A stretch of DNA of 64,000 bases from Halopseudomonas pelagia (lineage in GTDB: Bacteria; Pseudomonadota; Gammaproteobacteria; Pseudomonadales; Pseudomonadaceae), in contig NZ_CP033116.1 in the NCBI RefSeq assembly GCF_009497895.1, positions 3,906,001 through 3,970,000 on the forward strand, written 5' to 3'. Below are positions 37,099 through 49,311 of the stretch, piece after piece. The notes below the pieces were generated by a model. The model saw only the letters and a program-made list of their open reading frames with translations. It searched no databases and was not told the DNA's origin. Position 1 is the stretch's first letter. Each line of letters starts with the position of its first letter. Both the position numbers and the translations under genes were made by a program.

Positions 37099-37294
37099 GT
37101 AAGGAGTTCACGAAAAAAGTGTTATGTGGCAGGGGTTTAGTAGCAAAAACAGGGGTATTGAAGAGATATGACCTTAACTATCCGGGATCAACTTCATAAC
37201 CTACAGATGGATGCCATCCATAGTTAAAGTGAATTATCACGATTAAGATTTTTTTGATCTAACAGGAGGGGTTTTGACGACGAGAGATAAAAAT

Positions 37295-37647
<353 letters not shown>

Positions 37648-37654
37648 AGGAGCA

Positions 37655-37683
37655 AGGTTAGCCGGGTTCGGCGTCAGCGGCAA
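37655..37683 (-). promoter_or_regulatory. rnpB promoter (candidate)
   Basis: Minus strand: -35 TTGCCG (37678-37683), 17-base spacer, -10 TAACCT (37655-37660), ending 7 bases before the predicted 5' end of the RNA. Confidence 0.55.
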
Positions 37684-37698
37684 GTGGAGTATAGCGGC

Positions 37699-37713
37699 GC
37701 ACCATAACAGTGC
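37699..37713 (+). promoter_or_regulatory. Candidate NtrC binding site 1
   Basis: GCAC, seven bases, GTGC: the exact inverted repeat and spacing of NtrC sites. Centre about 130 bases before the predicted sigma-54 start point. It is also just upstream of the divergent rnpB promoter. Confidence 0.5.
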
Positions 37714-37766
37714 TTGCCGCGCACCACCTCGAGGCAGAAAATTCCCGGTTCGCCCCGGCGCTTTGT

Positions 37767-37781
37767 GCTCCATTGCAGTGC
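37767..37781 (+). promoter_or_regulatory. Candidate NtrC binding site 2
   Basis: GCTC, seven bases, GTGC, flanked by T and A as in TGCAC-N7-GTGCA; one mismatch to the consensus. Centre about 63 bases before the predicted start point. Confidence 0.45.
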
Positions 37782-37809
37782 AGCCCCCGGATAGCTGTAA
37801 TTGTCAGCG

Positions 37810-37826
37810 TTGGCACAACCCCTGCA
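37810..37826 (+). promoter_or_regulatory. Sigma-54 promoter of the guanidine operon (candidate)
   Basis: TTGGCAC (-24) and CTGCA (-12), with the invariant GG and GC separated by exactly 10 bases. Start point about 37837, 90 bases before the riboswitch. Sigma-54 with NtrC is the usual nitrogen-limitation control and fits a nitrogen-scavenging operon. The span 37648-37928 contains only regulatory sites, no gene. Confidence 0.6.
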
Positions 37827-37928
37827 TTGTTTAACCTCGCATACGAGATCCGGGTCTGTCTGACCCCAACAACGTAGCCTAGCCTGGCCGGGCCTCGCCC
37901 CCGGGTTAAATACAAATTGGCACCAATG

Positions 37929-38024
37929 GACAACTAGGGTTCCGATCTGCCTGGCAGATGACTGGTCCGAGAGTTGTCGACCTCCGCGAGGGGGTTACAC
38001 GGCGGGATAAAAGCCCGGGAGAGC
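37929..38024 (+). promoter_or_regulatory. Guanidine-I riboswitch (ykkC class)
   Basis: Conserved ykkC blocks are present in order: CTAGGGTTCCG, ACTGGTCCGAGAG, ACACGGCGGG, and ATAAAAGCCCGGGAGAG. Outer stem GACAACT (37929-37935) pairs with AGTTGTC (37972-37978); an inner hairpin ATCTG/CAGAT lies between, and a CCTC/GAGG stem follows. Guanidinium binding to this class switches gene expression on. No U-tract terminator follows, so control may be at translation. This RNA is the strongest evidence that the operon handles guanidine, not urea. Confidence 0.93.
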
Positions 38025-38069
38025 CTCAGACAGCTGAGATCTCGTTACCTGTAACCCGTGGAGACTGCC

Positions 38070-38150
38070 ATGCCTGTCGTACCTTTATTCCAGATTGTCT
38101 CGCCGCTGCGCACTTTCCCTCTGGCAGGGAGCCGTCTATGTCGCGTCTGA
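38070..38150 (+). CDS. Possible 26-codon upstream ORF (leader peptide)
   Basis: ATG at 38070 has GTGGAG seven bases upstream and encodes MPVVPLFQIVSPLRTFPLAG followed by SRLCRV. Its TGA (38148-38150) overlaps an in-frame ATG of the permease (codon 5) as TGATG, the usual form of coupled re-initiation. It lies between the riboswitch and the first transporter gene. It may be a real small protein, a translational coupling device, or chance. No homologue is recognised. Confidence 0.35.
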   Translation: MPVVPLFQIVSPLRTFPLAGSRLCRV

Positions 38151-38956
38151 TGAACCGCAAACCCGGCCGCGTACTGCATCTGGGTCTGGTGCTGTTGCCC
38201 TTCGCCCTGCTGCTATTGCTATACCTCGCAAGCTCGCAGGCACGCCTGGCAGACAATCCCAACGATAAGCTGTTACCGAGCTTTACCCAGATGGCCGACG
38301 CGGTCGATCGCATGGCCTTTACCCCGGACAAACGCACTGGCGCCTATCTCTGGTGGGACGACACCAGCGCCAGTCTGAAACGTCTGGGTACCGGTCTGGG
38401 CATCGCTGCAGTAACCAGCCTGGTGCTCGGCATGGCCATGTTGATTCCACTGCTGCGCAATCCGCTGTCGCCGCTGGTAACGGTAATCTCGATGATTCCG
38501 CCGCTGTCGATTCTACCCATTCTGTTTATCGTGCTGGGCTTGGGCGAGCTGTCCAAGGTCATGCTGATCGTCATCGGTATAACACCGGTGCTGATCCGCG
38601 ATATGCAACAACGGGTCAGCGAGATACCCACCGAGCTGCTGGTCAAGGCGCAGACCCTGGGCGCCAATACCTGGCAGGTACTGATCCGCGTCGTGCTGCC
38701 GCAACTGCTGCCCCGGCTTCTGCAGGGCTTGTGCCTAGCACTGGGGCCGGCCTGGCTGTTTCTGATCGCCGCGGAAGCCATTGCCTCCACCGACGGCCTG
38801 GGCTACCGCATCTTTCTGGTCCGCCGTTACCTGGCCATGGACGTGATTCTGCCCTATGTCGCCTGGATCACACTGCTGGCCTTCATCATGGATCGCGCGC
38901 TGAAAGGCATTTGCCGGGCGCTCTTTCCCTGGTTCGAACCCAAGGGAGCGCATTGA
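38138..38956 (+). CDS. ABC transporter permease, nitrate/taurine type (guanidine-linked)
   Basis: 272 residues from ATG 38138 (AGGGAG six bases upstream). About six membrane segments of the SsuC/TauC/NrtB permease fold, with the cytoplasmic EAA-type loop at VKAQTLGANTWQVLIRVVLPQLLP. The sequence resembles permeases encoded in 'urea carboxylase' clusters behind guanidine-I riboswitches. The substrate is inferred from context. No periplasmic binding protein is encoded next to it, which is unusual for this family. Confidence 0.85.
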   Translation: MSRLMNRKPGRVLHLGLVLLPFALLLLLYLASSQARLADNPNDKLLPSFTQMADAVDRMAFTPDKRTGAYLWWDDTSASLKRLGTGLGIAAVTSLVLGMAMLIPLLRNPLSPLVTVISMIPPLSILPILFIVLGLGELSKVMLIVIGITPVLIRDMQQRVSEIPTELLVKAQTLGANTWQVLIRVVLPQLLPRLLQGLCLALGPAWLFLIAAEAIASTDGLGYRIFLVRRYLAMDVILPYVAWITLLAFIMDRALKGICRALFPWFEPKGAH

Positions 38957-38957
38957 T

Positions 38958-39767
38958 ATGAGCGCCATCTCCATTCAGAACGTCTGGCAGCAGTACGATG
39001 ATAACGTCGTGCTGGAAAACCTTAACCTGGACGTCGCCAGTGGCGAGTTCATCACCATGGTTGGCGCCTCCGGCTGCGGCAAATCAACCTTCCTGCGTTT
39101 GCTGTTAGGTCAGGAAAAACCCAGCAAGGGTCAAATCCTGCTGGACGGCGAGCCGCTGGCTGCCGAACCCGGCCCGGAGCGTGGCGTGGTATTTCAGCGC
39201 TACTCGGTCTTCCCGCACCTGACGGTACTGGGCAACGTGATGCTCGGGCTCGAACTGCAGAGCTCGCCCTTGCTCGGACGCCTGTTCGGCAGCCAGCGCA
39301 AGGAGGCCCGTGATCGCAGCGTGGCCATACTCGAGTCGGTCGGCCTTGGTCATGCGTTGAATCAGTATCCGCATGCCCTGTCCGGCGGTATGCAACAGCG
39401 TCTGGCGATTGCCCAGGCGCTGGTCAAAACGCCGCGCATATTGTTGCTGGATGAACCCTTCGGCGCACTCGATCCCGGCATCCGCAAGGACATGCATGAG
39501 CTCTTGCTGTCCCTGTGGAAGAAATCCGGCCTCACGGTATTCATGGTCACCCATGACCTGAGCGAAGGCTTCACCTTGGGTACCCGCCTGATGGTATTCG
39601 ACAAGACCCGTATCGACCCGCAGGCCCCCGGCGCCTATGGCGCGCGCATCACCTACGACATTCCCCTGAACAGTGATCGACTGGCAGCCCGCGCCGCACT
39701 GGATGCGCTGCCGGAGCGCATTACTGGCAAAGCGGCGACACCTGATCTGCAAGGAGCTTCTGCATGA
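38958..39767 (+). CDS. ABC transporter ATP-binding protein, nitrate/taurine type (guanidine-linked)
   Basis: 269 residues, starting 1 base after the permease stop. Walker A GASGCGKSTFLRLLLG, Q-loop VVFQRYSVFPHLT, signature LSGGMQQRLAIAQAL, Walker B RILLLDEPFGALD and switch His in VTHDLSEG are all intact, so it should be an active ATPase. It pairs with the permease just upstream. It overlaps the next gene by 4 bases. Confidence 0.88.
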   Translation: MSAISIQNVWQQYDDNVVLENLNLDVASGEFITMVGASGCGKSTFLRLLLGQEKPSKGQILLDGEPLAAEPGPERGVVFQRYSVFPHLTVLGNVMLGLELQSSPLLGRLFGSQRKEARDRSVAILESVGLGHALNQYPHALSGGMQQRLAIAQALVKTPRILLLDEPFGALDPGIRKDMHELLLSLWKKSGLTVFMVTHDLSEGFTLGTRLMVFDKTRIDPQAPGAYGARITYDIPLNSDRLAARAALDALPERITGKAATPDLQGASA

Positions 39768-40492
39768 CTATCCCAGCGCCTCTGCGCACCACACTATTTG
39801 AAGAAACACTGCCCGGTGGTGGCCACACCTCGTTCGTGCTAAAGCGCGGCCAACTGCTACGCCTGACCGATATAGAAGGCAGCGCCAATGTCAGCATGAT
39901 GCTGTTCAACGCCCATGAAAAAAGTGAGCGCCTGAACCTGCCAGACAGCCTCAAGTGCCAACACACCGCCAAACTCACCGCCGGCCACTGCCTGTATTCC
40001 GACATGGGCCGGGTGCTGGCCGCCATCGTCACCGATACCTGTGGGTGGAGTGACAGTTTCGGCGGTGTACTGAATGCCGAAGAGGTCAAAGCCCACTATG
40101 GCGAAGGCCGCTATCAGGAACTGCGCAACGGTTTCTTCCGCAACGGTGTAGATAATCTGCTGGTGGAGATGGGTAAGTGGAACATGAACCTCGCGGATCT
40201 TCTGATGACGCTGAACCTGTTCAGCAAGGTCACCATCGATGCGGAAGGTCGCTTTCAATTCCACGCGAATAATTCCGCTGCCGGCGATCTGATAGAGCTC
40301 TACGCACCGATGGATACCCTCGTGGTACTGACCGCACTCCAACACCCCATGGATCCGAATCCGCAGTACGCACCCAAACCGGTCCAGCTCAGCTGGCATC
40401 AGGTCGCCGATGACGGCATCACCGTGCTCTGCCGCAACACCCGCGCAGAAAATGTGCGCGGCCTGTACAACACCGATCGCATTCACCTCTGA
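39764..40492 (+). CDS. DUF1989 protein, urea carboxylase-associated type 2 (probable carboxyguanidine deiminase subunit)
   Basis: 242 residues, DUF1989 family. Proteins of this pair, once called urea carboxylase-associated, were shown to be the two subunits of carboxyguanidine deiminase (CgdA/CgdB), which turns carboxyguanidine into allophanate and ammonia. Here the conserved TDTCG motif (C93) is kept, but the His that follows it in the partner protein is replaced (GWSD, residues 94-97). It may therefore be the non-catalytic partner; this is inference. Which of CgdA or CgdB it is was not decided. Confidence 0.8.
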
Positions 40493-40502
40493 GGGCCACA
40501 CC

Positions 40503-41141
40503 ATGACACTGACCCACAGCGACAAACAGCCAGACAACGCCAGCTTGCGCAGCCACATTGCCGCTGGCGAACCCTTCATGCTCGACATCAAGGCCGGCCA
40601 GACCGTGCGCTTGCTGGATCTGGAGGGCAATCAGGCTGTAGATACACTGTTCTACAGCGCCAGCAACCCGCGTGAACGCTATGACGTGCAACGCACCCTG
40701 CGCCGTCAGAACAGCGTCTACCTGACCGCGGGAAGCGTGCTCTACAGCAACATGGGCAACCCGATGCTGACCATCAGCGCCGACACCTGTGGCCGCCACG
40801 ACACCCTCGGTGGCGCCTGCGCTCAGGAAAGCAATACCGTGCGCTATGCGCTGAACACCCGCTATATGCACAGCTGCCGCGACAACTTTCTGCGCGCCAG
40901 CCTGCATGACGGGCGCCTGACCAAGGCCGACATCAGCGCCAATATCAACTTCTTCATGAACGTGCCGGTCACGCCCGAAGGCGGCTTGACCTTTGAAGAC
41001 GGCATTTCCGGCGCGGGCAAATACGTCGAGCTGGTCGCACACATGGACATCATTATCCTGATTTCCAACTGCCCGCAGCTGAATAATCCGTGCAACGGCT
41101 ATAACCCGACGCCGGCGGAAATACTGGTCTGGGACCAGTAA
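40503..41141 (+). CDS. DUF1989 protein, urea carboxylase-associated type 1 (probable carboxyguanidine deiminase subunit)
   Basis: 212 residues from ATG 40503 (GAGGG upstream), 10 bases after its paralogue. It keeps a full putative metal motif DTCGRHD (C96, H99, D100) and a second conserved Cys in HSCRDNF (C125). It is thus the better candidate for the catalytic subunit of the carboxyguanidine deiminase heteromer. The product, allophanate, would need an allophanate hydrolase, which is not in this window. Confidence 0.82.
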
Positions 41142-41170: not shown

Positions 41171-41219
41171 GCTCCGGGACGACCCAGGGAGCATTAAGTA
41201 GTGAACCAGGACGACCTGG
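41171..41219 (+). other. Twin ACGA-loop hairpins before the carboxylase gene
   Basis: Two stems in the 91-base spacer: GCTCC-GGG/CCC-GGAGC (41171-41192, with a 2-base bulge) and CCAGG/CCTGG (41206-41219), both closed by the loop ACGA. The second lies 13 bases before the ATG, next to the GAGGAA ribosome site. They could affect mRNA processing or translation of the carboxylase. Confidence 0.4.
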
Positions 41220-41232
41220 CCGAGGAACAACC

Positions 41233-44200
41233 ATGTTCGATACCTTGTTGATTGCCAACCGCGGCGCCATTGCCTGCCGCATCCTGCGCACCTTGAAAAG
41301 CCTCGACGTTCGCGGCGTGGCCGTGTATTCCGAAGCCGATGCAGCGAGCCTGCACCTTCAGCAGGCCGAAGAGGCAATCTCCCTCGGCGAAGGCGCCGCA
41401 ACCGGGACTTATTTGGATGTTCAAAAAATCCTCAATGCCGCCCGGCAAAGCGGCGCCCAGGCAATTCACCCAGGCTACGGCTTCCTCTCGGAAAACGCCG
41501 CTTTCGCCGAGGCCTGTGAGGCGGCGGGCATCGCCTTTGTTGGCCCGACCCCGGAACAGCTGCGAGTGTTCGGCCTCAAGCACACCGCCCGCGCGCTGGC
41601 CAAACAGCATGGTGTTCCCATGCTCGAAGGTACTGAGCTACTGGACAGCGTGGCTGCAGCGCTCACCGCTGCCGAGCAGGTCGGCTACCCAATCATGCTG
41701 AAAAGTACCGCAGGTGGCGGCGGCATCGGCATGCGTGTGTGCTGGAACGCCACCGAGTTGAGTGATGCCTTTGAAACGGTCAAACGTCTGGGTCAGAACA
41801 ACTTCAGCGATGCCGGTGTATTTATCGAAAAATACATCCAGCGTGCCCGGCATCTGGAGGTACAGGTATTCGGCGATGGTCAGGGCGGCGTGCTGGCTCT
41901 GGGCGTGCGCGACTGCTCGGTGCAGCGGCGCAATCAGAAAGTGGTTGAGGAAACCCCCGCACCCAATCTGCCGGAGGGTATGGCGGATGCGCTGTGCGAG
42001 GCCGCGATCCAGCTGGCCAGCGCCGTGCAATACCGCAGCGCCGGTACTGTGGAGTTTGTCTACGACAGCGAAGCCGCACAATTCTATTTCCTCGAGGTCA
42101 ACACCCGTCTGCAGGTGGAGCACGGCGTTACCGAGCAGGTCTGGGGTGTGGACCTGGTGCGCTGGATGATCGAGCTGGCGGCCGGCGATCTGCCGCCGCT
42201 GGCCGAACTGGGCAAGGACCTGAAAGCCCAGGGCCATGCCATCCAGGCGCGGGTGTATGCCGAGGATCCTGGCCGCGATTTCCAGCCCTGCCCCGGTTTG
42301 CTGACCGCGGTGAACTTTCCGGACGCCAACGGGCAAGCCTTGCGCATCGATACCTGGGTGGAAGCCGGTTGCGAGATCCCGCCCTACTTTGATCCGATGA
42401 TCGCCAAGATCATCTGCTGGGAACCTACCCGAGAAGCAGCCCGCGCCGCCCTGCACAGCACCCTTGGCGCCACGCAGCTGTATGGCGTAGAAACCAATAT
42501 CGAATATATTCGCCAGATTCTGCTGGATACGCCCTTTGCCAGCGGGGAACCCTGGACCCGCTGTCTGGAGCAGCTTAGTTATCAGGCCAATACCTTCGAA
42601 GTGGTCAGTGGTGGTACGCAAACCACCGTGCAGGACGTACCCGGTCGTCTCGGCTACTGGGCTGTTGGCGTACCGCCTTCCGGGCCGATGGATAATCTCG
42701 CGTTAAGATTGGGCAACCGTCTGCTGAACAATCCGAGCGACGCCGCCGGCCTGGAAATCACCATGACCGGCCCAACGCTGAAGTTCAACACCGATGCGGT
42801 GGTCGCGGTGACCGGTGCCGAGATCCCGCTGCACGTTGATGGCGAGCCGCAGCCGATGCATACCAGTCTGCTGATCAAGGCTGGCAGCCAAATGGCCCTG
42901 GGCACCATTCTTGGCACGGGGGCGCGCAGCTATCTTTCACTGCGTGGCGGCGTGCAGGTGCCGAATTATCTGGGCAGCAAAAGCACCTTCACCCTGGGCC
43001 AGTTTGGTGGGCATGCCGGTCGCGCGCTGCGCACGGGTGACGTGCTGCATCTACCGGCACTAACTGATGCCCACGCAGGCGAGAGTCTGGCCGAGGACAT
43101 GCGCACCAGCTTGCCGGCCGTCAGAGAACTGCGCGTAATCTACGGCCCGCACGCGGCGCCAGAATATTTTACCCAGGCGTATATGCAGCGGTTTCTGGAT
43201 ACCGACTGGGAAGTGCATTTCAACTCCAGCCGCACCGGCGTACGACTGATCGGACCCAAACCCGAGTGGGTGCGCGAAGACGGCGGCGAGGCCGGACTGC
43301 ACCCCTCGAATATTCATGACAACCCCTACGCCATCGGCGCCGTGGACTTTACCGGCGACATGCCGGTGATCCTCGGTCCTGATGGGCCGAGCCTGGGCGG
43401 CTTCGTTTGCCCGGTGAGCATCATTGAGGCCGATCTGTGGCAGATGGGCCAGCTCAAGGCTGGCGACCGGGTACGCTTTATCCCGGTAGCGCTGGAAACC
43501 GCACGCGAACTGGCTGTGCTGCGTAACCAGGCCATCCAGCAGTTGCAGCCGCTTTGCCCCGCCAGCAGCACTGCGGTCGTGCCGGAATCACCGATCGTGC
43601 TGGATATCGGCGAAGACGATACGCGCCTGGTCGCGCGGCTGTCCGGCGATACTCATCTATTGTTGGAAATTGGCCAGCCAGAGCTCGACCTGGTGCTGCG
43701 CTTTCGCGGGCACGCGCTGATGCAATCGCTGGAGGCGATGCAGTTGCCGGGCGTGAACGATCTGACGCCGGGCATACGCTCGCTGCAGGTGCACTATCAG
43801 CCGGAGACGCTCCCGATAGATCGGTTGCTGCGCATCGTCGAGGATGCCTGGGAAGCGGTCTGTAGCGCACGGGATCTCAAGGTGCCCTCGCGCATCGTGC
43901 ACCTGCCGCTGTCCTGGGACGATCCGGCGTGCCAACTGGCCATCGACAAGTACATGACCACCGTGCGCAAGGACGCCCCCTGGTGCCCGAGCAACCTGGA
44001 ATTCATTCGCCGCATCAATGATCTGCCGAATCTGGATGAGGTCTACCGGACCGTGTTCGAGGCCAGCTATCTGGTCATGGGCCTGGGCGACGTGTACCTG
44101 GGCGCACCGGTCGCCACACCGTTGGACCCGCGCCACCGCCTGGTCACCACCAAATACAACCCGGCCCGCACCTGGACTGCGGAGAACTCGGTGGGCATCG

Positions 44201-44835
44201 GTGGCGCTTATATGTGTGTGTACGGCATGGAAGGGCCTGGCGGCTACCAGTTCGTCGGCCGCACGCTGCAGATGTGGAATCGCTACCGTGAAGTCGAGGC
44301 CTTTGGTGGCATGCCCTGGCTGCTACGGTTTTTCGACCAGATCCGTTTTTACCCCGTCAGCGCCGATGAATTGCAGGTGATTCGCCGCGAATTCCCGCTG
44401 GGACGCTACCCGCTACGCATTGAAGAAACCGAACTGCGCCTGAATGATTACCAGGCTTTTCTCGATCAGGAGGCAGACGGTATTCAGGCATTTCGCCAGC
44501 AACAGCAGGCCGCGTTCAGGGCCGAGCGGGAGCGCTGGATTGCCAGCGGGCAGGCCAATTACGAAAGTGAAGAAGCCACCCCCGAAGACACTGAAGAAGC
44601 CCCGCTGCTGGCTGATCAGCAGGGGGTCGAGAGCCACATCGCCGGCAACCTGTGGCAGGTTCAGGTCGAGCAAGGCGCTCAGGTCAAGGCCGGGGATGTG
44701 CTGGTAATTCTGGAGTCGATGAAGATGGAAATACCCGTGGTCGCGCCCTGCGACGGGGTAGTCAGTTCAATCCACGTGCAGCCCGGCTCCGCGGTGCGTG
44801 CCGGCCAGCGGGTGCTGGTACTGCAACAGGCTTGA
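41233..44835 (+). CDS. Biotin-dependent guanidine (urea-type) carboxylase
   Basis: 1200 residues. Biotin carboxylase domain (1-450; ATP-grasp loop STAGGGGIGMRV, EVNTRLQVEHGVTE), then KipI/KipA-like carboxyltransferase halves (about 460-1100; LHPSNIHDNPYAIGAVDFTG), and a biotinyl domain with ESMKMEIP and biotinyl-Lys at 1164. This is the urea carboxylase architecture without fused allophanate hydrolase. Enzymes encoded behind guanidine-I riboswitches with DUF1989 genes prefer guanidine, forming carboxyguanidine. An Asp (D705) sits in GAVDFTGD, where urea-specific enzymes may have Asn; this needs alignment. ATG has GAGGAA upstream. Confidence 0.9.
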   Translation: MFDTLLIANRGAIACRILRTLKSLDVRGVAVYSEADAASLHLQQAEEAISLGEGAATGTYLDVQKILNAARQSGAQAIHPGYGFLSENAAFAEACEAAGIAFVGPTPEQLRVFGLKHTARALAKQHGVPMLEGTELLDSVAAALTAAEQVGYPIMLKSTAGGGGIGMRVCWNATELSDAFETVKRLGQNNFSDAGVFIEKYIQRARHLEVQVFGDGQGGVLALGVRDCSVQRRNQKVVEETPAPNLPEGMADALCEAAIQLASAVQYRSAGTVEFVYDSEAAQFYFLEVNTRLQVEHGVTEQVWGVDLVRWMIELAAGDLPPLAELGKDLKAQGHAIQARVYAEDPGRDFQPCPGLLTAVNFPDANGQALRIDTWVEAGCEIPPYFDPMIAKIICWEPTREAARAALHSTLGATQLYGVETNIEYIRQILLDTPFASGEPWTRCLEQLSYQANTFEVVSGGTQTTVQDVPGRLGYWAVGVPPSGPMDNLALRLGNRLLNNPSDAAGLEITMTGPTLKFNTDAVVAVTGAEIPLHVDGEPQPMHTSLLIKAGSQMALGTILGTGARSYLSLRGGVQVPNYLGSKSTFTLGQFGGHAGRALRTGDVLHLPALTDAHAGESLAEDMRTSLPAVRELRVIYGPHAAPEYFTQAYMQRFLDTDWEVHFNSSRTGVRLIGPKPEWVREDGGEAGLHPSNIHDNPYAIGAVDFTGDMPVILGPDGPSLGGFVCPVSIIEADLWQMGQLKAGDRVRFIPVALETARELAVLRNQAIQQLQPLCPASSTAVVPESPIVLDIGEDDTRLVARLSGDTHLLLEIGQPELDLVLRFRGHALMQSLEAMQLPGVNDLTPGIRSLQVHYQPETLPIDRLLRIVEDAWEAVCSARDLKVPSRIVHLPLSWDDPACQLAIDKYMTTVRKDAPWCPSNLEFIRRINDLPNLDEVYRTVFEASYLVMGLGDVYLGAPVATPLDPRHRLVTTKYNPARTWTAENSVGIGGAYMCVYGMEGPGGYQFVGRTLQMWNRYREVEAFGGMPWLLRFFDQIRFYPVSADELQVIRREFPLGRYPLRIEETELRLNDYQAFLDQEADGIQAFRQQQQAAFRAERERWIASGQANYESEEATPEDTEEAPLLADQQGVESHIAGNLWQVQVEQGAQVKAGDVLVILESMKMEIPVVAPCDGVVSSIHVQPGSAVRAGQRVLVLQQA

Positions 44836-49267: not shown

Positions 49268-49311
49268 AAAAAAAGCCCGGCCCCGGATTACTCCGGGGCC
49301 GGGTTTTTTTT
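49268..49311. terminator. Bidirectional intrinsic terminator
   Basis: An 11-bp GC-only stem (49276-49286 with 49293-49303) flanked by seven A on the left and eight T on the right. It serves the BON lipoprotein gene and the convergent sspB. Confidence 0.93.

Follow-up and report, generated by a model that had tools for sequence, protein, structure and literature searches.

Guanidine operons of the kind analysed here are established and not new. In the gca operon of Vreelandella boliviensis and enterobacteria, a Guanidine-I riboswitch stands first and is followed by ABC genes, a cgd pair and gca, with an internal Guanidine-II element before gca (PMC12508155, PMC12186494), an arrangement shared by the present operon, in which the Guanidine-II element is a probable one. 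Operon IV of Ectopseudomonas guguanensis G3 likewise combines Guanidine-I riboswitches with ABC genes and an additional uca gene, which has been suggested to encode a guanidine carboxylase (PMC13296017). The general re-assignment of 'urea' operons to guanidine is already made in a review (PMC12186494). Guanidine-I riboswitches of subtype 1 have the adenosine A46 in the binding pocket, and those of subtype 2 a pyrimidine (PMC6031431).

We analysed 64,000 nucleotides of the genome of Halopseudomonas pelagia, and "the window" refers to this whole stretch. It carries an operon in the order Guanidine-I riboswitch, permease, ATPase, UAAP1, UAAP2 and carboxylase, the carboxylase being the last gene. 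The features are as follows.

37923..38023, + strand: Guanidine-I riboswitch aptamer (RF00442, 91.6 bits, gathering score 63, E 3.2e-15 for 64 kb)
37982..37987, + strand: P2 5' strand, CUCCGC, a predicted anti-Shine-Dalgarno sequence paired with 38058-38063 when 37923-38100 is folded freely (probabilities 0.81-0.97)
37992..38002, + strand: P2 3' strand and following bases; free-fold partner of 38048-38057 (GGGUUACA/UGUAACCC)
38058..38063, + strand: Shine-Dalgarno region (GUGGAG) of the leader ORF, from sequence and fold
38070..38150, + strand: 26-codon leader ORF, including stop; 13-nt overlap with the permease start
38138..38956, + strand: ABC transporter permease (TauC-like, BPD_transp_1), from family matches; Shine-Dalgarno-like AGGGAG at 38126-38131, 6 nt 5' of the ATG
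38958..39767, + strand: ABC transporter ATPase, from family matches
39764..40492, + strand: UAAP1 (TIGR03425, DUF1989), of the carboxyguanidine deiminase subunit type (313.7 bits, cut-off 205.95)
40503..41141, + strand: UAAP2 (TIGR03424, DUF1989), of the carboxyguanidine deiminase subunit type (320.7 bits, cut-off 284.7; scanned from 40410)
41171..41219, + strand: probable Guanidine-II (mini-ykkC) riboswitch (RF01068, 31.7 bits, E 0.0021 in 8151 bases)
41222..41226, + strand: Shine-Dalgarno GAGGA of the carboxylase, from sequence
41233..44835, + strand: guanidine carboxylase (annotated urea carboxylase), 1200 aa, with D705 (TIGR02712, 1870 bits; Asp signature)

The riboswitch matches, gene families, signature residue, gene positions and overlap geometry are direct observations. 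Taken jointly, we consider it probable that the locus is a Halopseudomonas guanidine-assimilation operon with two guanidine riboswitches and leader coupling, whose binding protein (SBP) and allophanate hydrolase (AtzF) are encoded elsewhere.

The Guanidine-I riboswitch upstream of the operon is real. It had been proposed in the first-pass annotation, with all conserved ykkC blocks in order and a perfectly closing GACAACT/AGTTGTC stem, and a covariance-model search of the window with RF00442 bears this out: the score is above the gathering score, the match spans all 107 model positions with the strongly conserved model letters matched, and both stem strands are present as described (37929-37935 and 37972-37978), with 6 of the 7 positions paired by the model. 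The proposed span of 37929..38024 begins inside the match and ends one base beyond it. No other match turned up in the genome, a single contig of 4.55 Mb in which 150 of 159 first-look candidates were scored. A plasmid collection searched with 37900-38160 gave 76 records, mostly Pantoea, and the best places cover 34-38% of the query, corresponding to the aptamer. Just upstream, on the - strand, lies the RNase P RNA gene rnpB (37292-37646; RF00010, 335.9 bits).

The element before the carboxylase is fainter. Its RF01068 score falls 0.3 bits short of the gathering score of 32 and surfaced under a permissive threshold; the genome gave no other match among the 150 of 342 candidates that were scored. 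The region contains two hairpins with ACGA loops, with GGACGACC occurring twice, which agrees with the ACGR loops of the class, and folds little better than shuffled sequence (z -0.8). At least two ACGR hairpins occur within 260 nt 5' of the carboxylase in 77 of the 80 best of 593 named relatives, by a motif count without a chance control. An Rfam search of six relatives placed four above the RF01068 gathering score before the carboxylase (40.6-47.2 bits) and two, L021 and L022, below it. Because the score is below gathering and the assignment relies on place and conservation, we regard 41171-41219 as a probable member of the Guanidine-II class, one that may gate the carboxylase separately. 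The default Rfam threshold thus hides a probable second guanidine switch.

Between the riboswitch and rsmI, which follows the carboxylase on the - strand and is itself followed by an LppC/LpoA gene, neither a binding-protein gene nor an allophanate-hydrolase gene was found. Of the 'urea ABC transporter' that generic annotation would name, the operon holds only half, the permease and ATPase, and no binding-protein gene. The 817-aa ORF 3' of the carboxylase was considered as an allophanate hydrolase and rejected, being LpoA/LppC, with rsmI on the opposite strand. Elsewhere in the window, a strong GC hairpin with an A run on one side and a T run on the other was noted by eye at 49268-49311, between a BON-domain gene and sspB.

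Fold and covariation suggest how guanidine would control the first genes. The Guanidine-I aptamer would act as an ON switch: when guanidine is absent, the P2 strand at 37982-37987 would pair with the Shine-Dalgarno region at 38058-38063, and guanidine would stabilise P2 inside the aptamer and free that region. The freed site would start the 26-codon leader, which ends 13 nt inside the permease gene, and ribosomes finishing the leader would restart on the permease, whose own Shine-Dalgarno sequence is predicted to be partly folded.

The site at 38058-38063 serves the leader ORF and not the permease, and the 13-nt overlap makes the leader a uORF in the sense of a short ORF overlapping a gene start. 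We compared riboswitch–permease junctions, reducing 26 rows to 24 non-redundant ones (L113 and L110 were counted as duplicates of L021/L022). Half of them (12/24) have an overlapping leader of 20-42 codons; the permease is started directly in five, and in seven a leader ends 40-49 nt short of it. The overlaps measure 10 or 13 nt and therefore stand in the same frame relation to the permease. Overlap occurs in six of eight lineages, grouped by eye, for which a one-in-three frame gives p about 0.02. Permease codons fix where the stop falls, which leaves as informative features only the frame chosen and the lack of stops ahead of it. Statistical support for a coupled leader is modest. Compared with the relative L021, the window has no changes in 147 positions of aptamer and platform, 5 in 68 of the leader before the permease start, 19 in 816 of the permease and 168 in 3600 of the carboxylase. 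All five changed leader codons are non-synonymous, and leader peptides differ between junctions and are not conserved. These changes would fit selection on the frame rather than the peptide, or no selection at all.

Two readings of the leader deserve consideration. On the first, where no SBP gene follows the riboswitch directly, the start site under riboswitch control would persist as a landing-pad ORF, selected for its frame and stop and not for its peptide, to hand translation to the permease; the switch would then control a core whose SBP comes from a locus outside guanidine riboswitch control. This we hold as possible and short of probable. Equally tentative is the reading of the leader as a functionless by-product: the permease would use its own Shine-Dalgarno sequence, and closure of the first ribosome site would act through Rho or RNA stability. 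With AGGGAG lying 6 nt 5' of the permease ATG, coupling is not required; the leader peptides are not conserved, and the stop is dictated by the permease. An open frame is also cheap, given that in 8 of the 12 overlapping cases all three frames reach the permease start without a stop, and Rho-dependent ends have been reported at a Guanidine-II gene of E. coli (PMC7815308). Counter to this, 12 of the 19 leaders distinct from the permease itself share the overlapping frame at their end despite lengths of 20 to 42 codons.

The window's leader ORF was also compared with SBPs as a possible remnant of one and gave no convincing similarity. In L123 (G010), what follows the riboswitch as a leader looks like the beginning of an SBP gene that has been deleted, because the DNA on either side matches SBP-carrying operons and the leader begins MKKLSAL like an operon SBP; the match of this peptide alone is not significant (E 1.1).

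Returning to the proposed ON switch, control by Guanidine-I is probably translational, because no terminator was found (a consensus scan of 37640-38200 gave no terminator-like site) and P2 can pair with the Shine-Dalgarno region, with compensatory changes in relatives (for example, CCTCC/GGAGG against CCTTTC/GAGAGG). The free fold of 37923-38100 hides the leader Shine-Dalgarno region. We identified 135 Guanidine-I elements by motif, of which 134, with 58 distinct P2, entered a swap test (one had no start found). In this test, which like the register tests below ignores kinship among elements, duplexes between each P2 and its own Shine-Dalgarno region averaged -17.4 kcal/mol against -15.6 (sd 0.37) when swapped, and none of 10000 permutations reached the value of the true pairs, with 32% of foreign Shine-Dalgarno regions binding the average P2 better than its own. 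In a fixed register, 127 of the 135 elements were usable, with 34 distinct P2 strands (seven with a second-type P2 and one without a start were dropped); 69.0% of positions paired against 60.7% when shuffled, and for the six distal positions the values were 53.4% and 38.3% (sd 2.8; 0/10000). Over 56 distinct pairs, sliding the register took pairing down from 71.4% to 34-41%, a control flattered by anchoring on the Shine-Dalgarno sequence.

When the aptamer was forced, the Shine-Dalgarno G's at 38060-38061 stayed paired in four of four folds (unpaired 0.01-0.05), and in a fold to 38160 the whole Shine-Dalgarno region stayed paired. Folding does not demonstrate the ON state, because the forced aptamer leaves this region wholly or partly paired in a manner that varies with the folded length. 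Second-type Guanidine-I elements of the genus, with P2 starting TTTTCCGG, are mostly without a P2–Shine-Dalgarno match; by eye, those elements (for example, L127-L131) precede a protein with a signal-peptide-like start. One further element, L106 (G022), has no recognisable start codon and Shine-Dalgarno sequence where its relatives have one.

We consider it unlikely that Guanidine-I is transcriptional here, preventing an intrinsic terminator, with the P2–Shine-Dalgarno complementarity incidental. Guanidine-I is usually a transcriptional ON switch according to a review (PMC12186494), and a CUCAG/CUGAG hairpin lies at 38025-38038. However, this hairpin has no U-run behind it, the terminator scan was empty and the complementarity exceeds that in permutations.

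Genes for the two missing functions lie elsewhere in the genome. AtzF is encoded alongside a GntR-type regulator and urtABCDE, about 103 kb past the carboxylase on its downstream side, and the SBP family TIGR03427 scores above cut-off twice, at C1:849191-850285, adjoining type III glutamine synthetase, and at C1:1230783-1231835, adjoining a biuret-amidohydrolase-type gene that is below the cut-off of the curated BiuH model. In six stretches searched at the AtzF and SBP loci, no riboswitch reached its gathering score. From the gene families, imported guanidine would be carboxylated and then deiminated by the two UAAP subunits, and allophanate would be split by the distant AtzF, beside the urea-transporter genes. 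The SBP would be supplied from a different locus that has no guanidine riboswitch, and the copy beside type III glutamine synthetase is the likeliest source. This raises the question of where an ABC importer core obtains its SBP when the core alone is guanidine-controlled.

Across the genus, Guanidine-I was found in 26 of 37 genomes (at most 76 candidates scored per genome), 12 of which have more than one such element. The next gene after it is the SBP in eight of the 26 and the permease in 17, with G030 in neither count. All 17 genomes with the permease directly after the riboswitch encode a TIGR03427 SBP elsewhere, in five of them divergently at about 2.6 kb from the riboswitch (G016, G020, G025, G029, G035). 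The SBP is present in two of the 11 genomes without Guanidine-I (G026 and G031, both also without carboxylase hits). By coordinates, AtzF lies directly behind the guanidine carboxylase in nine of the 26 (G010, G015, G016, G017, G019, G020, G022, G029, G035).

We opened 14 SBP genes that do not follow a riboswitch: ten lie behind type III glutamine synthetase, two are divergent (L139, L143), and the others are L146 and the biuret-linked SBP. The succession of type III glutamine synthetase and TIGR03427 SBP thus recurs in ten genomes of the genus (L012, L132-L138, L145, L147). In a midpoint-rooted FastTree phylogeny, the ten linked SBPs read form their own clade apart from the operon SBPs (support 1.0), and both types occur side by side in some genomes, so that simple relocation of the operon SBP is not supported. 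The SBP linked to type III glutamine synthetase is a likely but unproven partner of the permease/ATPase core.

That the ABC core mainly serves another compound, such as biuret via the SBP at C1:1230783-1231835, with guanidine only as inducer, seems improbable. Its basis is that a TIGR03427 SBP adjoins a biuret-amidohydrolase-type gene, but an SBP in the range of 379-397 bits occurs in just three of the 37 genomes of the genus, and the linkage to a biuret hydrolase was read in the window's genome alone. After a LysR-type regulator, L013 8784-11293 holds an SBP, a gene of the biuret-amidohydrolase type and a 254-aa protein that gave no NCBIfam hit at 1e-15.

Guanidine rather than urea as the substrate of the operon is supported, because of the Asp signature, the two DUF1989 genes, the Guanidine-II match, the separate urease and the contrast within the genus between Asn-type and Asp-type loci. 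Guanidine carboxylases have Asp at Kluyveromyces (K.) lactis position 1330, where urea carboxylase has Asn, and a conserved Asp at 1584 (PMC11410670; positions numbered by chain 5i8i). The window's carboxylase, the only one in its genome above the family cut-off, has D705 opposite N1330 and D953 opposite D1584, and urease is encoded elsewhere in the genome. In the genus, we found 31 carboxylase hits besides the window's (at most 13 candidates scored per genome) and read 29, leaving out the partial G023 and G030; seven are Asn-type and 22 Asp-type. Guanidine-I is upstream of none of the seven Asn-type loci, whereas 21 of the 22 Asp-type loci share a contig with such an element about 3-4.5 kb upstream; for the remaining one, in G032, the element is on a separate contig. 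The Asp signature is present in all of the best 80 of 593 named relatives. The re-assignment from urea to guanidine made in the first-pass annotation is thus supported by D705, the two carboxyguanidine-deiminase-type genes, the Guanidine-II match and the separate urease. Urea carboxylase, the label it expected from generic annotation, is the name of TIGR02712; annotation still reading 'urea' is corrected by these findings. A true urea carboxylase in an operon for urea has the family name TIGR02712 in its favour, but is very improbable given the Asp signature, the riboswitches, the separate urease and urt transporter, and the Asn-type paralogues of the genus without a riboswitch.

Among the best 80 of 593 named relatives by carboxylase, the nearest is Halopseudomonas laoshanensis, with 98% identity in the best segment; identity is 75-81% in 78 of the 80, and 88 and 98% in the other two. 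These Pseudomonas guanidine operons, including two that are Halopseudomonas-like, share the order permease, ATPase, UAAP1, UAAP2 and carboxylase. In 66 of these best 80 of 593, the SBP gene lies just before the permease, in contrast to the window operon; it is absent as in the window at four (L021, L022, L035, L054), six are rearranged with the riboswitch between SBP and permease, and four are cut by contig ends. At six loci (L030, L032, L041, L044, L059, L087), three Guanidine-I elements and two SBP genes surround one carboxylase.

Compared with the gca operon of Vreelandella boliviensis and enterobacteria, which as a complete operon includes SBP and allophanate hydrolase genes, the window operon is without SBP and atzF, both of which are elsewhere in its genome. 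Operon IV of Ectopseudomonas guguanensis G3 differs in having a LysR regulator and, within its cluster, SBP genes (PMC13296017). As a Guanidine-I element, the aptamer resembles RF00442 (ykkC subtype 1) in its full model match and its place upstream of a carboxylase operon, and differs in its probable translational platform, with P2 as anti-Shine-Dalgarno, and in that the first ORF opened is a short leader. The open-licence literature searched, partly by passages, yielded no report of a leader ORF at Guanidine-I. The closest parallel is ppe2 of Mycobacterium (M.) tuberculosis, where a riboswitch-controlled uORF works through termination-reinitiation (PMC11260477): both have a translational riboswitch on a short ORF overlapping a gene, but the ligand there is B12 and the switch is OFF, whereas here the ligand is guanidine, the switch is presumed to be ON and the coupling is our inference. 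The locus is less usual than related operons in its second, faint switch, its two pathway genes elsewhere and a leader ORF that may pass the signal to the permease. It offers a case in which riboswitch action by way of a leader ORF can be tested, and both the split system and the leader-coupled translational platform are worth following.
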